27,172 nt of DNA from a virus, in the IMG/VR virus record IMGVR_UViG_3300032087_004632, positions 1-27,172 of that record; one strand, given 5' to 3'. Position numbers and translations under genes: made by a program. Under the pieces are notes generated by a model. That model saw only the letters and a program-made list of their open reading frames with translations. It had not been told where the DNA came from and searched no databases. Shown here piece after piece: positions 2,302 through 27,172 of the stretch; position 1 is the stretch's first letter, and each line of letters starts with the position of its first letter.

Positions 2302-2984
2302 TCGATATCCGGGAATAAACATTCTTGTACGAACACACGTACATCTTCCTCATCCAACCCTAAACTTGTCATTGTACGTGGTGTATGCGGATTTTGTTTT
2401 TGGAAATGTGCATAACGGTTTTGTGCTGCTTTACCTGCTTCTTCTTTTCCTACACCATTGTAGGCACCAATATATTCTAAATAGTTATCAATACTGTCAA
2501 AACTTAGTTCCACAAGTTGCTCTAGTTCTTCTGTGCTGTTTACATTGCCTGCTGCTACCATATGCTCAGTAAAAATAGCCTTAGCCCACTCTGGCAGTTC
2601 ACGTGGCTTGCGCCATTCTAGTTTTGCCACTTCATCTCCAAATGCATCAATCATTTCGTGATATTCTAAAGACGTTGGTGAGTAATCGTGGAAATAACCT
2701 GTGATTTTGTTTTTACCAGCAATAACATCTAGTCCAAAAATAGGACCATCATTATCCAAGTGAGGAAACACACAACAATGCATCATCCATAGTCCTTTTG
2801 TATCTCTTGCATCTACAACATCAACGTGTGCTCTGCGATAGTTTTCACTGTTCCAAACACGATTGATCCAACCCGGTTGATTGAATCTATCCATACCTGG
2901 CTCTTCAATTTCTGTGCCTGTTGCATCAAAACGTTCAATTAATCTGTCTTGAATTTTAATCAGTGTATCCCAAACTTCACTCAT
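2298..2984 (-). CDS. pcyX: Ferredoxin-dependent bilin reductase, PcyX type
   Basis: Reduces biliverdin IXalpha to a phycobilin with electrons from ferredoxin. The 228-aa protein has the FDBR core. MHCCVFPH carries the catalytic His (residue 69 from the ATG start) and FGLDVIAG carries the catalytic Asp (86). They correspond to His88 and Asp105 of PcyA. The position of PcyA Glu76 is Asp55 here (AHVDVVDA). From memory of published work on PcyX from uncultured oceanic phages, this Glu-to-Asp change and the conserved Asp-His pair define PcyX, which makes phycoerythrobilin by a four-electron reduction. I chose ATG 2984 rather than GTG 2987 because AGGAG then sits 7 bases upstream; it also gives the D55/D86 numbering I recall. 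The gene overlaps hemO by 8 bases, so substrate supply and use are coupled. The FDBR call is firm; the product is inferred. Confidence 0.88.
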   Translation of the reverse strand: MSEVWDTLIKIQDRLIERFDATGTEIEEPGMDRFNQPGWINRVWNSENYRRAHVDVVDARDTKGLWMMHCCVFPHLDNDGPIFGLDVIAGKNKITGYFHDYSPTSLEYHEMIDAFGDEVAKLEWRKPRELPEWAKAIFTEHMVAAGNVNSTEELEQLVELSFDSIDNYLEYIGAYNGVGKEEAGKAAQNRYAHFQKQNPHTPRTMTSLGLDEEDVRVFVQECLFPDID

Positions 2985-3516
2985 CACCTAACTCCTCAAA
3001 AAGTTCCATTGCAAATTCAAAACAACGATTTGCTTCATCTGCCATATCATCATGTAACATGGCTCTTACAGTAGTCTTTAATTCTTCTACGTTTTCGAAA
3101 ATATACATCACACCCGAACCAGGATTGCGCTTTGCAATCATTTGTCCGCCATACATATCTCCAAAATGTCTTACATATATGTGAGCAAGTAAATCATCTT
3201 TGTTATCTAATGCCATTACATGTCCTGTGTATCTAGCAACAACAGGACAAAGAAGATCTACATTACGCTGAATGTCATACTCTTTTTCTAGTTCTACCAT
3301 ATCCTGGCTAATAGCTTTAGCTCTACATATAGGTTCAATACCATCTAGTACGCCTAGTTCGATTGCTCTACTTTCTAATACAGCGTATTGCACATATTGA
3401 TTATAAATGTATCTATGGTATTCTTGTGGAGTCATGCCCTTTAATAGTTTACGGGCATGTTCCGTTCTTTCTGCTTTTTGGTGATTTTCCCAGGTAAGTT
3501 CTTTGAGTTTGCTCAT
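2977..3516 (-). CDS. hemO: Heme oxygenase (biliverdin-forming)
   Basis: Cleaves heme to biliverdin IXalpha, CO and ferrous iron using electrons from ferredoxin. The 179-aa protein begins with the heme-oxygenase proximal helix; His12 in WENHQKAE is the predicted heme ligand. The distal-helix signature FGDMYGGQMIAK is present, matching the GD-(L/M)-(S/Y)-GGQ motif of the HO-1 family. The length is that of compact bacterial or phage enzymes, without a membrane anchor. The start (ATG 3516) overlaps the clpS stop as ATGA and has GAGGA just upstream. The downstream pcyX overlaps it by 8 bases. The pair makes a two-step heme-to-bilin pathway like the ho1-pebS pair of cyanophages. Released iron could also supply the di-iron ribonucleotide reductase encoded in this genome, which is inference. 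Confidence 0.92.
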   Translation of the reverse strand: MSKLKELTWENHQKAERTEHARKLLKGMTPQEYHRYIYNQYVQYAVLESRAIELGVLDGIEPICRAKAISQDMVELEKEYDIQRNVDLLCPVVARYTGHVMALDNKDDLLAHIYVRHFGDMYGGQMIAKRNPGSGVMYIFENVEELKTTVRAMLHDDMADEANRCFEFAMELFEELGDE

Positions 3517-3815
3517 TCTTCCTCTAATTTTACTTGTAGTTGGAATCCATGATTCCTTGCAAGATTCACAGTTTCTCCTGCTTTCATTTCAGCAATTTCA
3601 TATGAATAAATTCCTGCAATGCCACTGCCTTCTTCGTGAATAGTCATTGTCAAGTTAGTAGCTGCTTCATAATTGTGTTTGTATATATTTTGCAAAACAT
3701 CAATCACAAAATCCATAGGAGTTGTATCATCATTCAATACTACAACTTTACATTTTTTCGGCTCTTTTAGATCTAAACTAATTTTTTCATCTAAAACTAT
3801 TTCTGTATCTGTCAT
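3513..3815 (-). CDS. clpS: ClpS, adaptor of the ClpAP protease
   Basis: ClpS binds ClpA, delivers N-degron substrates and inhibits degradation of ssrA-tagged proteins. This 100-aa protein has the family core: VVVLNDDTTPMDFV (24-37), in which Asn28 and Asp29 correspond to the N-degron pocket, His60 (TIHEEG), the GIAGIYSYEIAEMKA segment, and a C-terminal strand GFQLQVKLEEE. The N-terminal extension of about 20 residues fits the disordered tail that enters ClpA. AAGGAG lies five bases before the ATG. The gene lies third in an operon of rpsU, hsp20, clpS, hemO and pcyX. A hairpin (3833-3852) sits just upstream of its ribosome binding site. In a phage it could reset host protease choice; the linkage to the phage tmRNA in this window is notable. 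Confidence 0.93.
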   Translation of the reverse strand: MTDTEIVLDEKISLDLKEPKKCKVVVLNDDTTPMDFVIDVLQNIYKHNYEAATNLTMTIHEEGSGIAGIYSYEIAEMKAGETVNLARNHGFQLQVKLEEE

Positions 3816-3832
3816 ATTATCTCCTTTGTGGT

Positions 3833-3852
3833 GGGGGGATGTTACTCCCCCC
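3833..3852 (-). other. GC-rich hairpin between hsp20 and clpS
   Basis: A 7-bp perfect stem (GGGGGGA paired with TCCCCCC, 6-base loop) lies in the gap between the hsp20 stop and the clpS ribosome binding site. It has no U-tract on the minus strand, so it is a poor Rho-independent terminator. It may protect upstream mRNA ends, act as a processing site or tune clpS translation. Confidence 0.55.
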
Positions 3853-3859
3853 TAGACTG

Positions 3860-4306
3860 TTAGCCTTCGATTGCGTCAAATTGTTTAATTGCAATCTTCT
3901 TTGGTTTCTGTGCTTCTGGCACATTGCGTACCAAATGAATGTTTAGCATACCTAGTTCAAGACCTGCTTGTTCTACTTCAATATGCTCGGCTAATGTAAA
4001 CTGTCTACGGAAGTTGCGTCCGCCAATTCCTTTGTGTAGATAGTTCACTTCCTCATCTCCTTTTGGAGCAGTACCTTCAACTGTCAACACATTCTTTTCC
4101 AATGTGATGTCCAAGTTGTCCATACCAAAGCCTGCAACTGCAAGACTGATCATGTATTCGTCTTCGTTGATTTGTGCAATGTTGTATGGTGGGTACCCAC
4201 TTGATTTTGTATTTTCAAATGCTCTATCCATCTCTTGGAAGATTCTATCAAATCCAATTGTTGAACGGGTAAAGTGTGGGAAGTCTAGAGTTTGTAATCT
4301 TGTCAT
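3860..4306 (-). CDS. hsp20: Small heat-shock protein Hsp20 (IbpA-like)
   Basis: ATP-independent holdase of the alpha-crystallin family. From ATG 4306 the protein has 148 aa. The N-terminus (FTRSTIGFDRIFQEMD) matches IbpA/B-type sequences (SAIGFDRLF). The alpha-crystallin domain spans about 40-130, with a GMLNIHL strand equivalent to the family GxLxIxL motif. A C-terminal IAI motif (KKIAIK) would bind neighbouring subunits. I chose ATG 4306 because AAGGAG lies seven bases upstream and because homologues begin here; the frame is open for 18 more codons upstream without a good ribosome site. Hsp20 is nearly universal in T4-like marine phages. It lies between rpsU and clpS in a protein-quality operon, with hairpins flanking it on both sides. 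Confidence 0.93.
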   Translation of the reverse strand: MTRLQTLDFPHFTRSTIGFDRIFQEMDRAFENTKSSGYPPYNIAQINEDEYMISLAVAGFGMDNLDITLEKNVLTVEGTAPKGDEEVNYLHKGIGGRNFRRQFTLAEHIEVEQAGLELGMLNIHLVRNVPEAQKPKKIAIKQFDAIEG

Positions 4307-4337
4307 TTCATTTCTCCTTATATAAGCAAGATATAAT

Positions 4338-4361
4338 AGTGGACCCATTGTGGCGTCCACT
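4338..4361 (-). other. Hairpin between rpsU and hsp20
   Basis: AGTGGAC pairs with GTCCACT around a 10-base loop that itself contains CCA/TGG, so the stem can extend to about 10 bp with a bulge. It lies just after the rpsU stop. There is no U-run on the minus strand, so it is more likely an mRNA-stability or processing element or weak attenuator than a true terminator. Confidence 0.5.
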
Positions 4362-10278: not shown

Positions 10279-10409
10279 ACTTTTTTCCTATCATTATACC
10301 TTATCATAATAGTCCAAGTTGGTTGGCTATCAACCAGTTCTATTGCTTCGCCTAAACTATCATATATATCTATAATAGTTCCAGTCTTTAGATTCATTAC
10401 GTAATACAT
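10275..10409 (-). CDS. 44-aa hypothetical protein
   Basis: A short soluble protein (MYYVMNLKTGTIIDIYDSLG at the N-terminus, ending IRYNDRKKV). Its ATG shares one base with the TAA of the 120-aa membrane protein upstream (TAATG) and its TGA overlaps the ATG of the 52-aa gene (ATGA). These overlaps on both sides are the main evidence that it is translated. Its beta-strand, turn, helix, strand pattern suggests a small folded domain. No family recognised. Confidence 0.68.
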   Translation of the reverse strand: MYYVMNLKTGTIIDIYDSLGEAIELVDSQPTWTIMIRYNDRKKV

Positions 10410-10771
10410 TATACGTGTTCACCGTCTGCTGCACGGCCATTGTATTTCTTGCCGCTCTTGAGCAGTTTGTTGATAGATTCTGGATTGTTTTCTGCTTGAC
10501 GGAACACTGTTGCTGTAAGTGTAATACCTGTAATCAAACAAATATGAAAGGCTGCACTAACACCAAACGCATAATAACTGCCTACCATTACAGCAAACAA
10601 GCCGCTCCAAATAAAGAATAGGCATTGGAAGATCATATGACCTACCATTGGGTCTAAGTTGCGTAGTGGTGATTTTTCTACCGTCATTACACTGTCCCAC
10701 ATTTCTCGTGGTAGTTTTATTAAAGACGAAATAGTTGTAGCCCAACCAATGGGCTTTGGTGTTTTGTTCAT
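10409..10771 (-). CDS. Two-TM membrane protein, first gene of the pseudoazurin operon
   Basis: A 120-aa protein with a polar N-terminus (MNKTPKPIGWATTISSLIKLP), two hydrophobic segments (about 46-69 and 70-90) and a basic tail (KSGKKYNGRAADGEHV). No family recognised. It opens an operon of five overlapping genes ending in pseudoazurin. A sigma70-like promoter (10802-10830) lies 30-60 bases upstream. Small phage inner-membrane proteins of this type can act in superinfection exclusion or lysis control, but nothing in the sequence decides this. Confidence 0.78.
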   Translation of the reverse strand: MNKTPKPIGWATTISSLIKLPREMWDSVMTVEKSPLRNLDPMVGHMIFQCLFFIWSGLFAVMVGSYYAFGVSAAFHICLITGITLTATVFRQAENNPESINKLLKSGKKYNGRAADGEHV

Positions 10772-10846: not shown

Positions 10847-10901
10847 AAATTGTAGCAGGCCCGTTCTGTTGCTAGGTGGAACCCATACCCCGCATACCTA
10901 A

Positions 10902-10943
10902 TTAGGCTGCAATTGCCATTGCTGGCGCACGATTGTCATTTGC
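10902..10943 (-). other. tmRNA tag reading frame (ANDNRAPAMAIAA)
   Basis: Reading from GCA at 10943 gives 13 codons, ANDNRAPAMAIAA, and a TAA stop. With the alanine carried by tmRNA the full tag starts AANDN. AANDN is the usual alphaproteobacterial tag beginning, and a small hydrophobic residue followed by Ala-Ala at the end is what ClpXP and related proteases read. Confidence 0.92.
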
Positions 10944-11023
10944 AATTGTGAATTTTGACCAATAACGCAGTCATCCGGTTAACTCCACTTCACTTTCACA
11001 CCTGTCGATCCTATTTCTGCCCC

Positions 11024-11098
11024 ATCATAACTACACTGCTTTCTACCTCTACAGTGGCCACTGCTTACGCTGGTATAACGTCCCACAGTGTAGTTATG
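11024..11098 (-). other. Intervening segment of pre-tmRNA with 13-bp closing helix
   Basis: CATAACTACACTG next to the acceptor end (11086-11098) is perfectly complementary to CAGTGTAGTTATG next to the coding piece (11026-11038). This helix continues the acceptor stem and holds the permuted precursor together before processing frees the CCA end and the 5' end. It includes the last bases of the encoded CCA end. Confidence 0.8.
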
Positions 11099-11162
11099 GT
11101 GGAGCTGCGCGGTACTGCCCCGCGGTCCAGTATGTGTCCACGTTGCTTCAACGCTAACAGTT

Positions 11163-11170
11163 TATTTATA
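11163..11170 (-). promoter_or_regulatory. T4-type late promoter TATAAATA before ssrA
   Basis: An exact late box directly upstream of the acceptor piece. The predicted start (about 11157) coincides with the expected beginning of the tmRNA precursor. Its first six bases also serve as the -10 box of the overlapping sigma70 promoter. Confidence 0.7.
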
Positions 11171-11194
11171 ACATAAATGATTAAAGTTTGTCAA
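11165..11194 (-). promoter_or_regulatory. Sigma70-type promoter overlapping the ssrA late box
   Basis: TTGACA (11189-11194), an 18-bp spacer and TATAAA (11165-11170) on the minus strand. The -35 box is followed by AAC, as in three other promoters in the window. Together with the late box it could give ssrA transcription through the whole infection. Confidence 0.6.
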
Positions 11195-11202
11195 CCAGTA
11201 TT

Positions 11203-11421
11203 TTACCACTTTTCTGATGTGCGTTTTTTGAAATCTTGTTGAGCACGGACAGCATTCATAAGACGAAGTATTCTGCTTTTCTTTTCACCTGGGCGATCAT
11301 ATTTGTTCTTTTGTTCCCATGTTTTGTCTCTTTCAAGTTCTTTGGCAAACTGCTCGCCTAATAGTTTTTCCAAGTACGACAAGTCGTCGTTACTAAGTTC
11401 TTGTATCTTCCGTGAAACCAT
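11203..11421 (-). CDS. Small hypothetical protein
   Basis: A 72-aa soluble, highly charged helical protein (MVSRKIQELSNDDLSYLEKL at the N-terminus, Lys/Arg-rich towards the end). No family recognised. I chose ATG 11421 because GGAGAG lies about nine bases upstream; the frame is open 23 codons further but without a ribosome site. Its start overlaps the end of the preceding 72-aa gene by 29 bases. The ssrA promoter begins just after its stop region. Confidence 0.62.
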   Translation of the reverse strand: MVSRKIQELSNDDLSYLEKLLGEQFAKELERDKTWEQKNKYDRPGEKKSRILRLMNAVRAQQDFKKRTSEKW

Positions 11422-11611
11422 TCTGTCTGTCTCTCCATGCTTGTTCGAACTGTTCTTCATAGTCGTACAAAGGTGCGCCGTTACTTCCATCGATCCATAG
11501 TCGACGAAAGTATCCGTTGTAACTTTCTATTACTGTTTGAGGTGATGCGTCGAGATGGCCTTTAACCATATAGAATATTCTGTATTCTTCTTTAAGGTCG
11601 TTTCTCAACAT
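11393..11611 (-). CDS. Small hypothetical protein
   Basis: A 72-aa soluble acidic protein with many aromatic residues (EEYRIFYMVKGHLDASPQTV, then YNGYFRRLWIDGS). No family recognised. There is no clear ribosome site before ATG 11611; a GTAAATA late-like box lies immediately upstream, so the message may be nearly leaderless. Its end overlaps the next gene. Confidence 0.62.
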   Translation of the reverse strand: MLRNDLKEEYRIFYMVKGHLDASPQTVIESYNGYFRRLWIDGSNGAPLYDYEEQFEQAWRDRQNGFTEDTRT

Positions 11612-25935: not shown

Positions 25936-26700
25936 ATGATAACAGAAATGACATTTATGGAGCGTAGTCTCCTATTTGCTAAACTAGCAAGTATAGCGTA
26001 TCAAGATGATACAAAAAAAGTTTTAAAACACGCAAAAAGATTAGGGTTTACTGAAATTGAATTCTACAACAGAGATGGTGCTCAAGCATATCGTTTTCAA
26101 AATTCAGATGATATTGTAATTGCTTGTCGTGGAACACAACCTAGTGAGTTCAACGACTTGAAAGCTGACTTGAAGGCTGCACCAGTAGTTGCAGAAACTG
26201 TGGGTAGAGTTCATCAAGGCTTTAAGGATGAAGTTGATGAACTTTGGCCATTGGTAAAAGAAGATTTAGAAGCTGTAGGCAAAACACGCAAGGCTTGGTT
26301 CTGCGGACACAGCCTAGGTGCTGCTATGACAACTATCATGGCTAGCCGTTGCGAAGATGACCCTGATATGCCAACTATTGAAGAAGTGTACACATATGGT
26401 TCGCCACGCACAGGATGGCGCAAGTTTGTAAAAAGTCTAAATTGCAAGCACCAGCGTTGGGTCAACAACAATGACATAGTCACTCGTGTGCCATTTGCTA
26501 TTATGGGATACAAACACGATGGTTGCGAACACTATCTTGACAGCAAAGGTATGTACCGTCCTAAGATTGGTATAGTTTCTAGAATTATAGATAGATGGAA
26601 AGGTATGCTAGGTGGATTGATAAAACTGAATATTGATAACTTCAGTGATCACAGCATGGTAAATTATATCGCATATTTGGAAAAAAATCAGGAGGGCTAA
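25936..26700 (+). CDS. Class 3 lipase (alpha/beta hydrolase)
   Basis: The only plus-strand gene. The 254-aa product belongs to the Lipase_3 family. The nucleophile elbow is CGHSLGAA with Ser126; Asp180 lies in NNNDIVTRVP and His239 in SDHSMVNY, completing a Ser-Asp-His triad. The oxyanion segment is IACRGTQPSEFNDLKADL, and YTYGSPRTG is the family strand after the elbow. No signal peptide is present, so it should act in the cytoplasm or be released at lysis. A role in breaking down host membrane lipid is possible. GAGGG lies before ATG 25936, and a CTAAATA late box precedes it. It faces the peroxiredoxin gene, whose terminator overlaps the lipase stop. I recall similar lipases in T4-like cyanophages. 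Confidence 0.88.
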   Translation: MITEMTFMERSLLFAKLASIAYQDDTKKVLKHAKRLGFTEIEFYNRDGAQAYRFQNSDDIVIACRGTQPSEFNDLKADLKAAPVVAETVGRVHQGFKDEVDELWPLVKEDLEAVGKTRKAWFCGHSLGAAMTTIMASRCEDDPDMPTIEEVYTYGSPRTGWRKFVKSLNCKHQRWVNNNDIVTRVPFAIMGYKHDGCEHYLDSKGMYRPKIGIVSRIIDRWKGMLGGLIKLNIDNFSDHSMVNYIAYLEKNQEG

Positions 26701-26752: not shown

Positions 26753-27172
26753 TTAGACGTTCTCTAGGTATTCACAACAATTTTCTGGTGTTGTTTCACC
26801 ATAGGGGTCGTTGTCATCTCCATCGTTGTTGATACCAGGCTCTTGCCACCATTTTTCTACAACTCCATTGTGCATTACACACATGTAGCGCCAACTACGG
26901 TTACCAAATCCTAAGTGGTTCTTACCAATCAACATACCCATGAAGCGAGTGAAGTTGCCCGATCCATCTGGAATAACTTTTACGTGTTGAATGTCTTGTT
27001 GTTTAGCCCAAGCGTTCATAACAAACGCATCATTTACACTGATACAATAAACTTCATCAATACCTGCGTTGCGGATACGATCATAGTTTTCTTCAAAGCC
27101 CGGCAACTGGTATGTGCTACATGTAGGAGTAAATGCTCCTGGCAATGAAAATAAAACTACACGTTTGTTTTT
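26753..27172 (-). CDS. Peroxiredoxin, Prx5-like (5' end outside window)
   Basis: A thiol peroxidase that removes hydrogen peroxide and alkyl peroxides. The frame is open to the right edge, and 139 residues are visible (full Prx5 proteins are about 160). The active site is LPGAFTPTCSTYQLPGFE, with the peroxidatic Cys in TPTCS, and the Prx5 landmarks FVMNAWAK, GFGNRSWRYMCVMHNGVVEK and ENCCEYLE follow. The Arg of the NRSWRY segment lies where the family places its active-site Arg. The in-frame TTG at 27145 falls inside the conserved region and is not the start. The enzyme could limit oxidative damage during infection, including that linked to heme breakdown and the di-iron ribonucleotide reductase. 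Confidence 0.88.
   Translation of the reverse strand, partial: KNKRVVLFSLPGAFTPTCSTYQLPGFEENYDRIRNAGIDEVYCISVNDAFVMNAWAKQQDIQHVKVIPDGSGNFTRFMGMLIGKNHLGFGNRSWRYMCVMHNGVVEKWWQEPGINNDGDDNDPYGETTPENCCEYLENV

Follow-up and report, generated by a model that had tools for sequence, protein, structure and literature searches.

The window analysed here, 27,172 bases of DNA, is the whole of an IMG/VR record. Its minus strand carries, at about 11158-10854, a complete circularly permuted two-piece tmRNA gene, identified by covariance models and by ARAGORN. The alpha_tmRNA model (RF01849) matches positions 11197-10854 with 119.5 bits (E 2.2e-32) over its full length (model positions 1-355), and the tmRNA_permuted model (RF04321) matches 11158-10902 with 112.4 bits (E 1.8e-21). 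Curated cut-offs are 50 and 47 bits, respectively, and the gene exceeds both over the full model. ARAGORN, which is independent of the Rfam models, also reports a permuted tmRNA, with the tag ANDNRAPAMAIAA. These scores together with the agreement of ARAGORN exclude a chance match. A sequence-only reading had placed a phage-encoded permuted two-piece tmRNA of alphaproteobacterial layout at 10850-11160, with no strand named, and had proposed a covariance-model search as a check. Its span proved right to within a few bases, its identification holds, and all the parts it listed (acceptor piece with CCA, intervening segment, GGGGCAG 5' end, GAAATAGGATCGAC and 13-codon tag) are found on the minus strand. 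Permuted two-piece tmRNAs are already known from phages, namely Melnitz, Mosig and DSS3_MAL1.

In the transcript, the acceptor piece with its encoded CCA comes first, the spacer second and the coding piece last, which is the permuted order. The acceptor piece (11097-11158, minus strand, as are all parts below) is the 3' half of the tRNA-like domain and was delimited by the RF01849 and RF04321 alignments, its exact 5' end being a predicted one. It contains the P2 strand CACATACTG (11136-11128) followed by GAC, the T-arm CGCGG GGCAGTA CCGCG (11124-11108), the acceptor 3' strand CAGCTCC (11107-11101) and the encoded ACCA (11100-11097). The intervening segment, or spacer, of 73 nt (11024-11096), structured by folding and covariation and predicted to be excised, includes two helix arms, TAACTACACTG (11096-11086) and CAGTGTAGTTA (11038-11028), and ends with TGAT (11027-11024), which faces ACCA. 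The coding piece (10854-11023; full-length RF01849 match, 3' end predicted) opens with the acceptor 5' strand GGGGCAG (11023-11017). Then follow GAAATAGGATCGAC, ending at 11004, the P2 strand CAGGTGTG (11004-10997), the pseudoknot region, the tag reading frame and the 3' motif ACCTAGCAACAGAA (10877-10864). The G3-U70 alanine identity pair and the discriminator A are both present in GGGGCAG/CAGCTCC-ACCA, with A6 and A67 unpaired. The tag frame (10902-10943, ARAGORN) has a resume codon GCA, a stop codon TAA at 10904-10902 and a peptide ending in AA; its codons are GCA AAT GAC AAT CGT GCG CCA GCA ATG GCA ATT GCA GCC TAA. The pattern AND/ANE/ANN...AA recurs in most of the phage tags compared.

Upstream of the acceptor piece lies a promoter-like element, composed of the -35-like hexamer TTGACA (11189-11194) and, 18 nt past it and just before the acceptor piece, the -10-like TATAAATA (11163-11170), which resembles a T4 late promoter. 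In the sister phage L127 this position is taken by TTGACA-N17-TATAAATA. A promoter-like score of at least 10 is reached by 67% of 97 phage tmRNAs, by 3% of shuffles and by 10% of bacterial genes, and TATAAATA itself stands upstream of 63/98 phage tmRNAs as against 1/63 bacterial ones. A strict sigma-70 scan of the window lists no promoter here, since it requires T at position 6 of the -10 hexamer and misses the element. For the T4 late promoter, the Melnitz paper (PMC9004378) names TATAAAT.

The two pieces are held together by covarying pairing in the acceptor stem and in P2. Among 98 phage genes, P2 between the pieces has on average 5.65 pairs, compared with 3.79 when halves are swapped between phages, and at the second and third acceptor pairs in the alignment both sides have changed in 10/46 and 25/46 sequences, respectively. 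The two pieces thus covary in related phages, a point on which the sequence-only reading had staked its claim. When the two mature pieces were cofolded in full, P2 did not come out reliably, as the method leaves pseudoknots aside. In the refined set of 99 phage genes the window alone has an imperfect acceptor stem, 6/7 pairs with the A6-A67 mismatch, the other 98 all having 7/7. The mismatch may stem from a sequence error, be a change that the RNA tolerates, or indicate weakening; as it is absent from the other phage genes compared, the window copy could be weakened or mis-sequenced.

The spacer is itself structured. The opening 11 bases of the spacer form a helix with an 11-base stretch that stops 4 nt short of the mature 5' end; these last 4 nt, as a rule TGAT, stand opposite ACCA, giving three pairs and a C-A mismatch. 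Together, acceptor stem and spacer amount to a single helix some 22 steps long (seven steps of the acceptor stem, ACCA/TGAT and 11 spacer pairs). The window spacer folds at -37.7 kcal/mol (z -3.92), a value reached by none of 200 shuffles. In 46 diverse phage sequences 96.4% of the cells of the spacer helix are paired, with a covariation score of 0.534 versus 0.157 in shuffled data and with both-side changes in 181 cells versus 49 in shuffles; shifting the register abolishes the covariation signal. Known RNA families were sought in the window spacer, and none but the tmRNA models was found. At least seven contiguous spacer pairs in any register occur in 87/99 phage and 20/65 bacterial genes. 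The phage register is nearly constant (85 at offsets 0/4 or 1/5) while bacterial registers vary, and the median spacer length is 94 nt in phages and 30 nt in bacteria; the 90 bacterial loci are not a random sample, because 60 were hand-chosen from weaker matches and 30 were top matches. The helix may guide or time processing.

The window derives from a T4-related myovirus, whose genome it covers in part. Among its genes are those of a class Ia ribonucleotide reductase (RNR), whose large subunit most resembles that of Stenotrophomonas phage DLP_6 (63%) and those of jumbo T4-related phages; a phage exonuclease, a structural protein of the virion and members of other phage families are encoded as well. 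A search for near-identical phages in the annotated phage collection returned only short RNR matches. Contig G001, 76.5% identical to the window over 9.6 kb, carries a permuted tmRNA among the same neighbouring genes, with the tag ANDNFAPSGFALAA (read by hand from the sequence). The genes flanking the window tmRNA (11203-11611 and/or 10409-10771) are common to L116, L114, L053, L033, L073 and the sister contig, and L114, L053, L033 and L073 share part of the neighbourhood. L116 is the nearest relative of the window tmRNA (90% identical over 260 columns), and the genes around it match those of the window (85% and 99% amino acid identity for the upstream gene pair, 88% for the downstream gene).

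Several other genes of the window deserve mention. Heme oxygenase, ClpS and a chaperone of the HSP20 type are encoded by neighbouring genes on the minus strand at 2977-4360, in an order kept in the sister contig L125. A plastocyanin/azurin-type copper protein with a signal-like N-terminus (PF00127, 3.6e-16) is encoded in this phage at 9501-9938, minus strand. Near the right edge lie a class 3 lipase (25936-26700, plus strand) and a peroxiredoxin-like protein (Redoxin; 26753-27172, minus strand) interrupted by the window end.

Among known systems, the ssrA of the Methylophilales phage Melnitz (MZ577095-98; PMC9004378) is similar: it is permuted and two-piece, has the same acceptor/spacer/coding order, belongs to a T4-type myovirus and has its spacer helix in an identical register, TGAT preceding GGGG. 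It differs in that identity is 74% and extends over 106 nt only, in that the flanking genes are different, and in that a glutamine riboswitch (RF01739) follows it (found in L128), while the window has none. The ssrA genes of DSS3_MAL1 and the roseophages MD18, V10 and RcXuper are likewise permuted, with the same signature and, where measured, the spacer helix, but these phages form a different group of about 150 kb with a tRNA-rich neighbourhood; several of the copies are unannotated in their records. With the alphaproteobacterial two-piece tmRNA (Caulobacter type, RF01849) the window gene shares layout, tRNA-like domain, the T-loop GGC(A/G)GTA and a tag starting with AND and ending in AA. The sampled alphaproteobacterial tmRNAs, however, have the shorter spacers given above, usually without a helix in fixed register, and hardly any of them has TATAAATA upstream. 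The Sinorhizobium jumbo phage Phosso, which has ClpS as well, also contains a permuted tmRNA that its record leaves unannotated (L130; PV764938.1, 349553-350242, minus strand); the spacer there is 410 nt long.

How common are such genes? Melnitz and Mosig phage tmRNAs were described in 2022, when tmRNA was reported in 402/18,146 isolate phage genomes and two-piece forms in 53/133 unique structures, 50 of them marine or aquatic (PMC9004378). The notion that tmRNA is rare in phages, put forward from the sequence alone, agrees with these isolate counts but fits IMG/VR badly, where at least 119 stretches match one strict 23-base signature, a count that may be inflated because some contigs there may hold host DNA wrongly assigned to viruses.

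A tree built from 158 genes has a branch (SH-aLRT 99) that parts 92 of the 93 phage rows from 65 alphaproteobacterial genes; the tree was made by a quick method on 283 columns, with alphaproteobacterial references only and with phage rows selected by a common signature. Betaproteobacterial references were sought in 200 genomes and none exceeded the cut-off, which leaves the tree with alphaproteobacterial and phage rows only. L054, on a long branch, lies outside the phage side, but the AU test does not reject a single phage clade (p-AU 0.945; the tree constrained to have one is the better of the two). The tmRNA of Melnitz, whose host is a gammaproteobacterium, falls inside the phage set. Since the phage lineage is separate and the Melnitz host is gammaproteobacterial, the permuted layout is poor evidence of host, and the earlier suggestion that it fits an alphaproteobacterial host finds no support here. 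Assigning a host by the nearest bacterial gene was tried and abandoned: an exact 19-base signature led to three unrelated MAGs, none of which (0/3) has an RF01849 match.

Comparison of the spacers revealed nested genes in relatives of the window. Of 43 non-redundant phage spacers at least 95 nt long, 22 are spanned by an open reading frame, where 3.6 would be expected and 300 shuffles gave no more than 10; the bacterial count is 0/4. Nested families recur, with amino-acid-changing versus silent differences per site of, for example, 0.078-0.121 versus 0.54-0.63. No report of nested proteins in tmRNA spacers was found in the literature examined, which is not proof of novelty.

The spacers of L036, L061, L094, L066, L075, L112, L085 and L091 encode a conserved hydrophobic protein of 38-44 amino acids (MKNPLVKKISV...), whose stop codon is the TGA of TGAT, whose silent changes are far above its amino acid changes, and which has no match in the phage collection. 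Two further nested families, MDFHWISW... and MDEVILWE..., occupy the spacers of L003, L012, L023 and L071 and of L013, L054 and L011, respectively, and have as stop codon the TAG of GAAATAG, which lies in the coding piece. The 352-nt spacer of L107 holds a nested membrane-like protein of 117 residues, 42% identical to the product of a free-standing gene of Pelagibacter phage HTVC010P. In L118 a tRNA-Arg(TCT) gene lies within the permuted tmRNA spacer; a tRNA in this position has one prior report, as unique (PMC11915505). In the window spacer, a GTG frame without a Shine-Dalgarno sequence was the only candidate and was rejected; the window is a member of the lineage without spacer cargo.

Nested proteins would be translated from a Shine-Dalgarno sequence in or near the helix and would stop in TGAT or GAAATAG; in one phage, tRNA-Arg takes their place. 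With such a spacer, one transcript could first be translated into the nested protein and, once processed, act as tmRNA.

Gene, tag, two-piece pairing, helix, promoter conservation and common phage context are all observed. On this sequence evidence, the window holds a complete phage-owned permuted ssrA, which most probably makes a working tmRNA in infection with host SmpB; its expression, processing, charging, activity and benefit to the phage are what we infer. Transcription from TTGACA-N18-TATAAATA, an early-type -35 joined to a T4-late-type -10, would yield a single precursor, in which the near-continuous helix of about 22 steps would hold the halves of the tRNA-like domain together until host RNase P and enzymes acting on 3' ends take the spacer out. 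Both pieces, the acceptor one of about 62 nt and the coding one of about 170 nt, would remain paired via acceptor stem and P2, be charged with alanine (G3-U70 being kept) and bind host SmpB. The host protein is presumed because no SmpB gene was found in the window and 19 other tmRNA-bearing phage records (20 in total, some fragmentary). The tmRNA would then rescue ribosomes stalled on broken messages in infection, adding ANDNRAPAMAIAA as a ClpXP-type degradation tag; ribosome recycling or retagging, the roles first suggested for it, are plausible.

Could the RNA instead be a decoy, soaking up host SmpB or charged tmRNA sites and so blocking host trans-translation? The tmRNA of phage DS6A, which has little beyond the tRNA-like domain, is discussed as an inhibitor (PMC4131195; PMC11915505), and the A6-A67 mismatch could impair function. 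A decoy, however, needs no tag, while the window copy, like diverse other phage copies, retains a tag ending in AA, and the match to the alpha model is full-length; we regard this explanation as very improbable. The same mismatch, unique among the phage genes compared, might also mark a decaying passenger, recently acquired from a host and no longer under selection. Yet all other helices and the tag are intact, L116 shares phage flanking genes on both sides, and phage copies form a separate lineage that is not near the sampled host genes, which makes decay very improbable. Finally, tmRNA genes are frequent prophage integration sites, known from genomic-island biology (PMC11915505), but it is extremely improbable that the locus is an integration-site remnant or host DNA in the contig, since the gene is complete, lies amid phage genes (RNR and structural genes surround it), keeps the same neighbours in related viral contigs, and no integrase was noticed among the window open reading frames, part of which were searched.

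A working phage tmRNA may have a partner in ClpS, encoded at 3513-3815 on the minus strand (PF02617, 2.3e-26). The protein keeps NDDxTPM and the binding-pocket H, and its best solved relative is 3dnj. ClpS is the N-degron adaptor of the host Clp protease and diverts ClpAP from SsrA-tagged proteins, which makes a link to tmRNA conceivable. It is present in 5/20 tmRNA-bearing records (the window, its sister, two other large contigs and phage Phosso), for which 3/18 is the fair count because the sister was found by ClpS; the whole phage collection has it in 18/50,697. A functional link in the phage is only suggested by these data, and a joint literature search for tmRNA, ClpS and phage found no paper whose title addresses one.

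Taken more broadly, we lean towards the view that phage permuted tmRNAs are an old virus-owned lineage, characterized by a composite early/late promoter, by a fixed-register helix joining CCA end and 5' leader, and by a spacer that may serve as a niche for nested genes. The findings suggest long viral ownership of the gene for a ribosome-rescue RNA rather than its recent acquisition from a host. Host assignment from tmRNA type is weakened accordingly, including the argument for a SAR11-to-OM43 host switch based on Melnitz. Small phage genes nested inside an RNA gene are missed by annotation pipelines, and the conserved precursor structure offers a concrete handle on how two-piece tmRNAs are processed.
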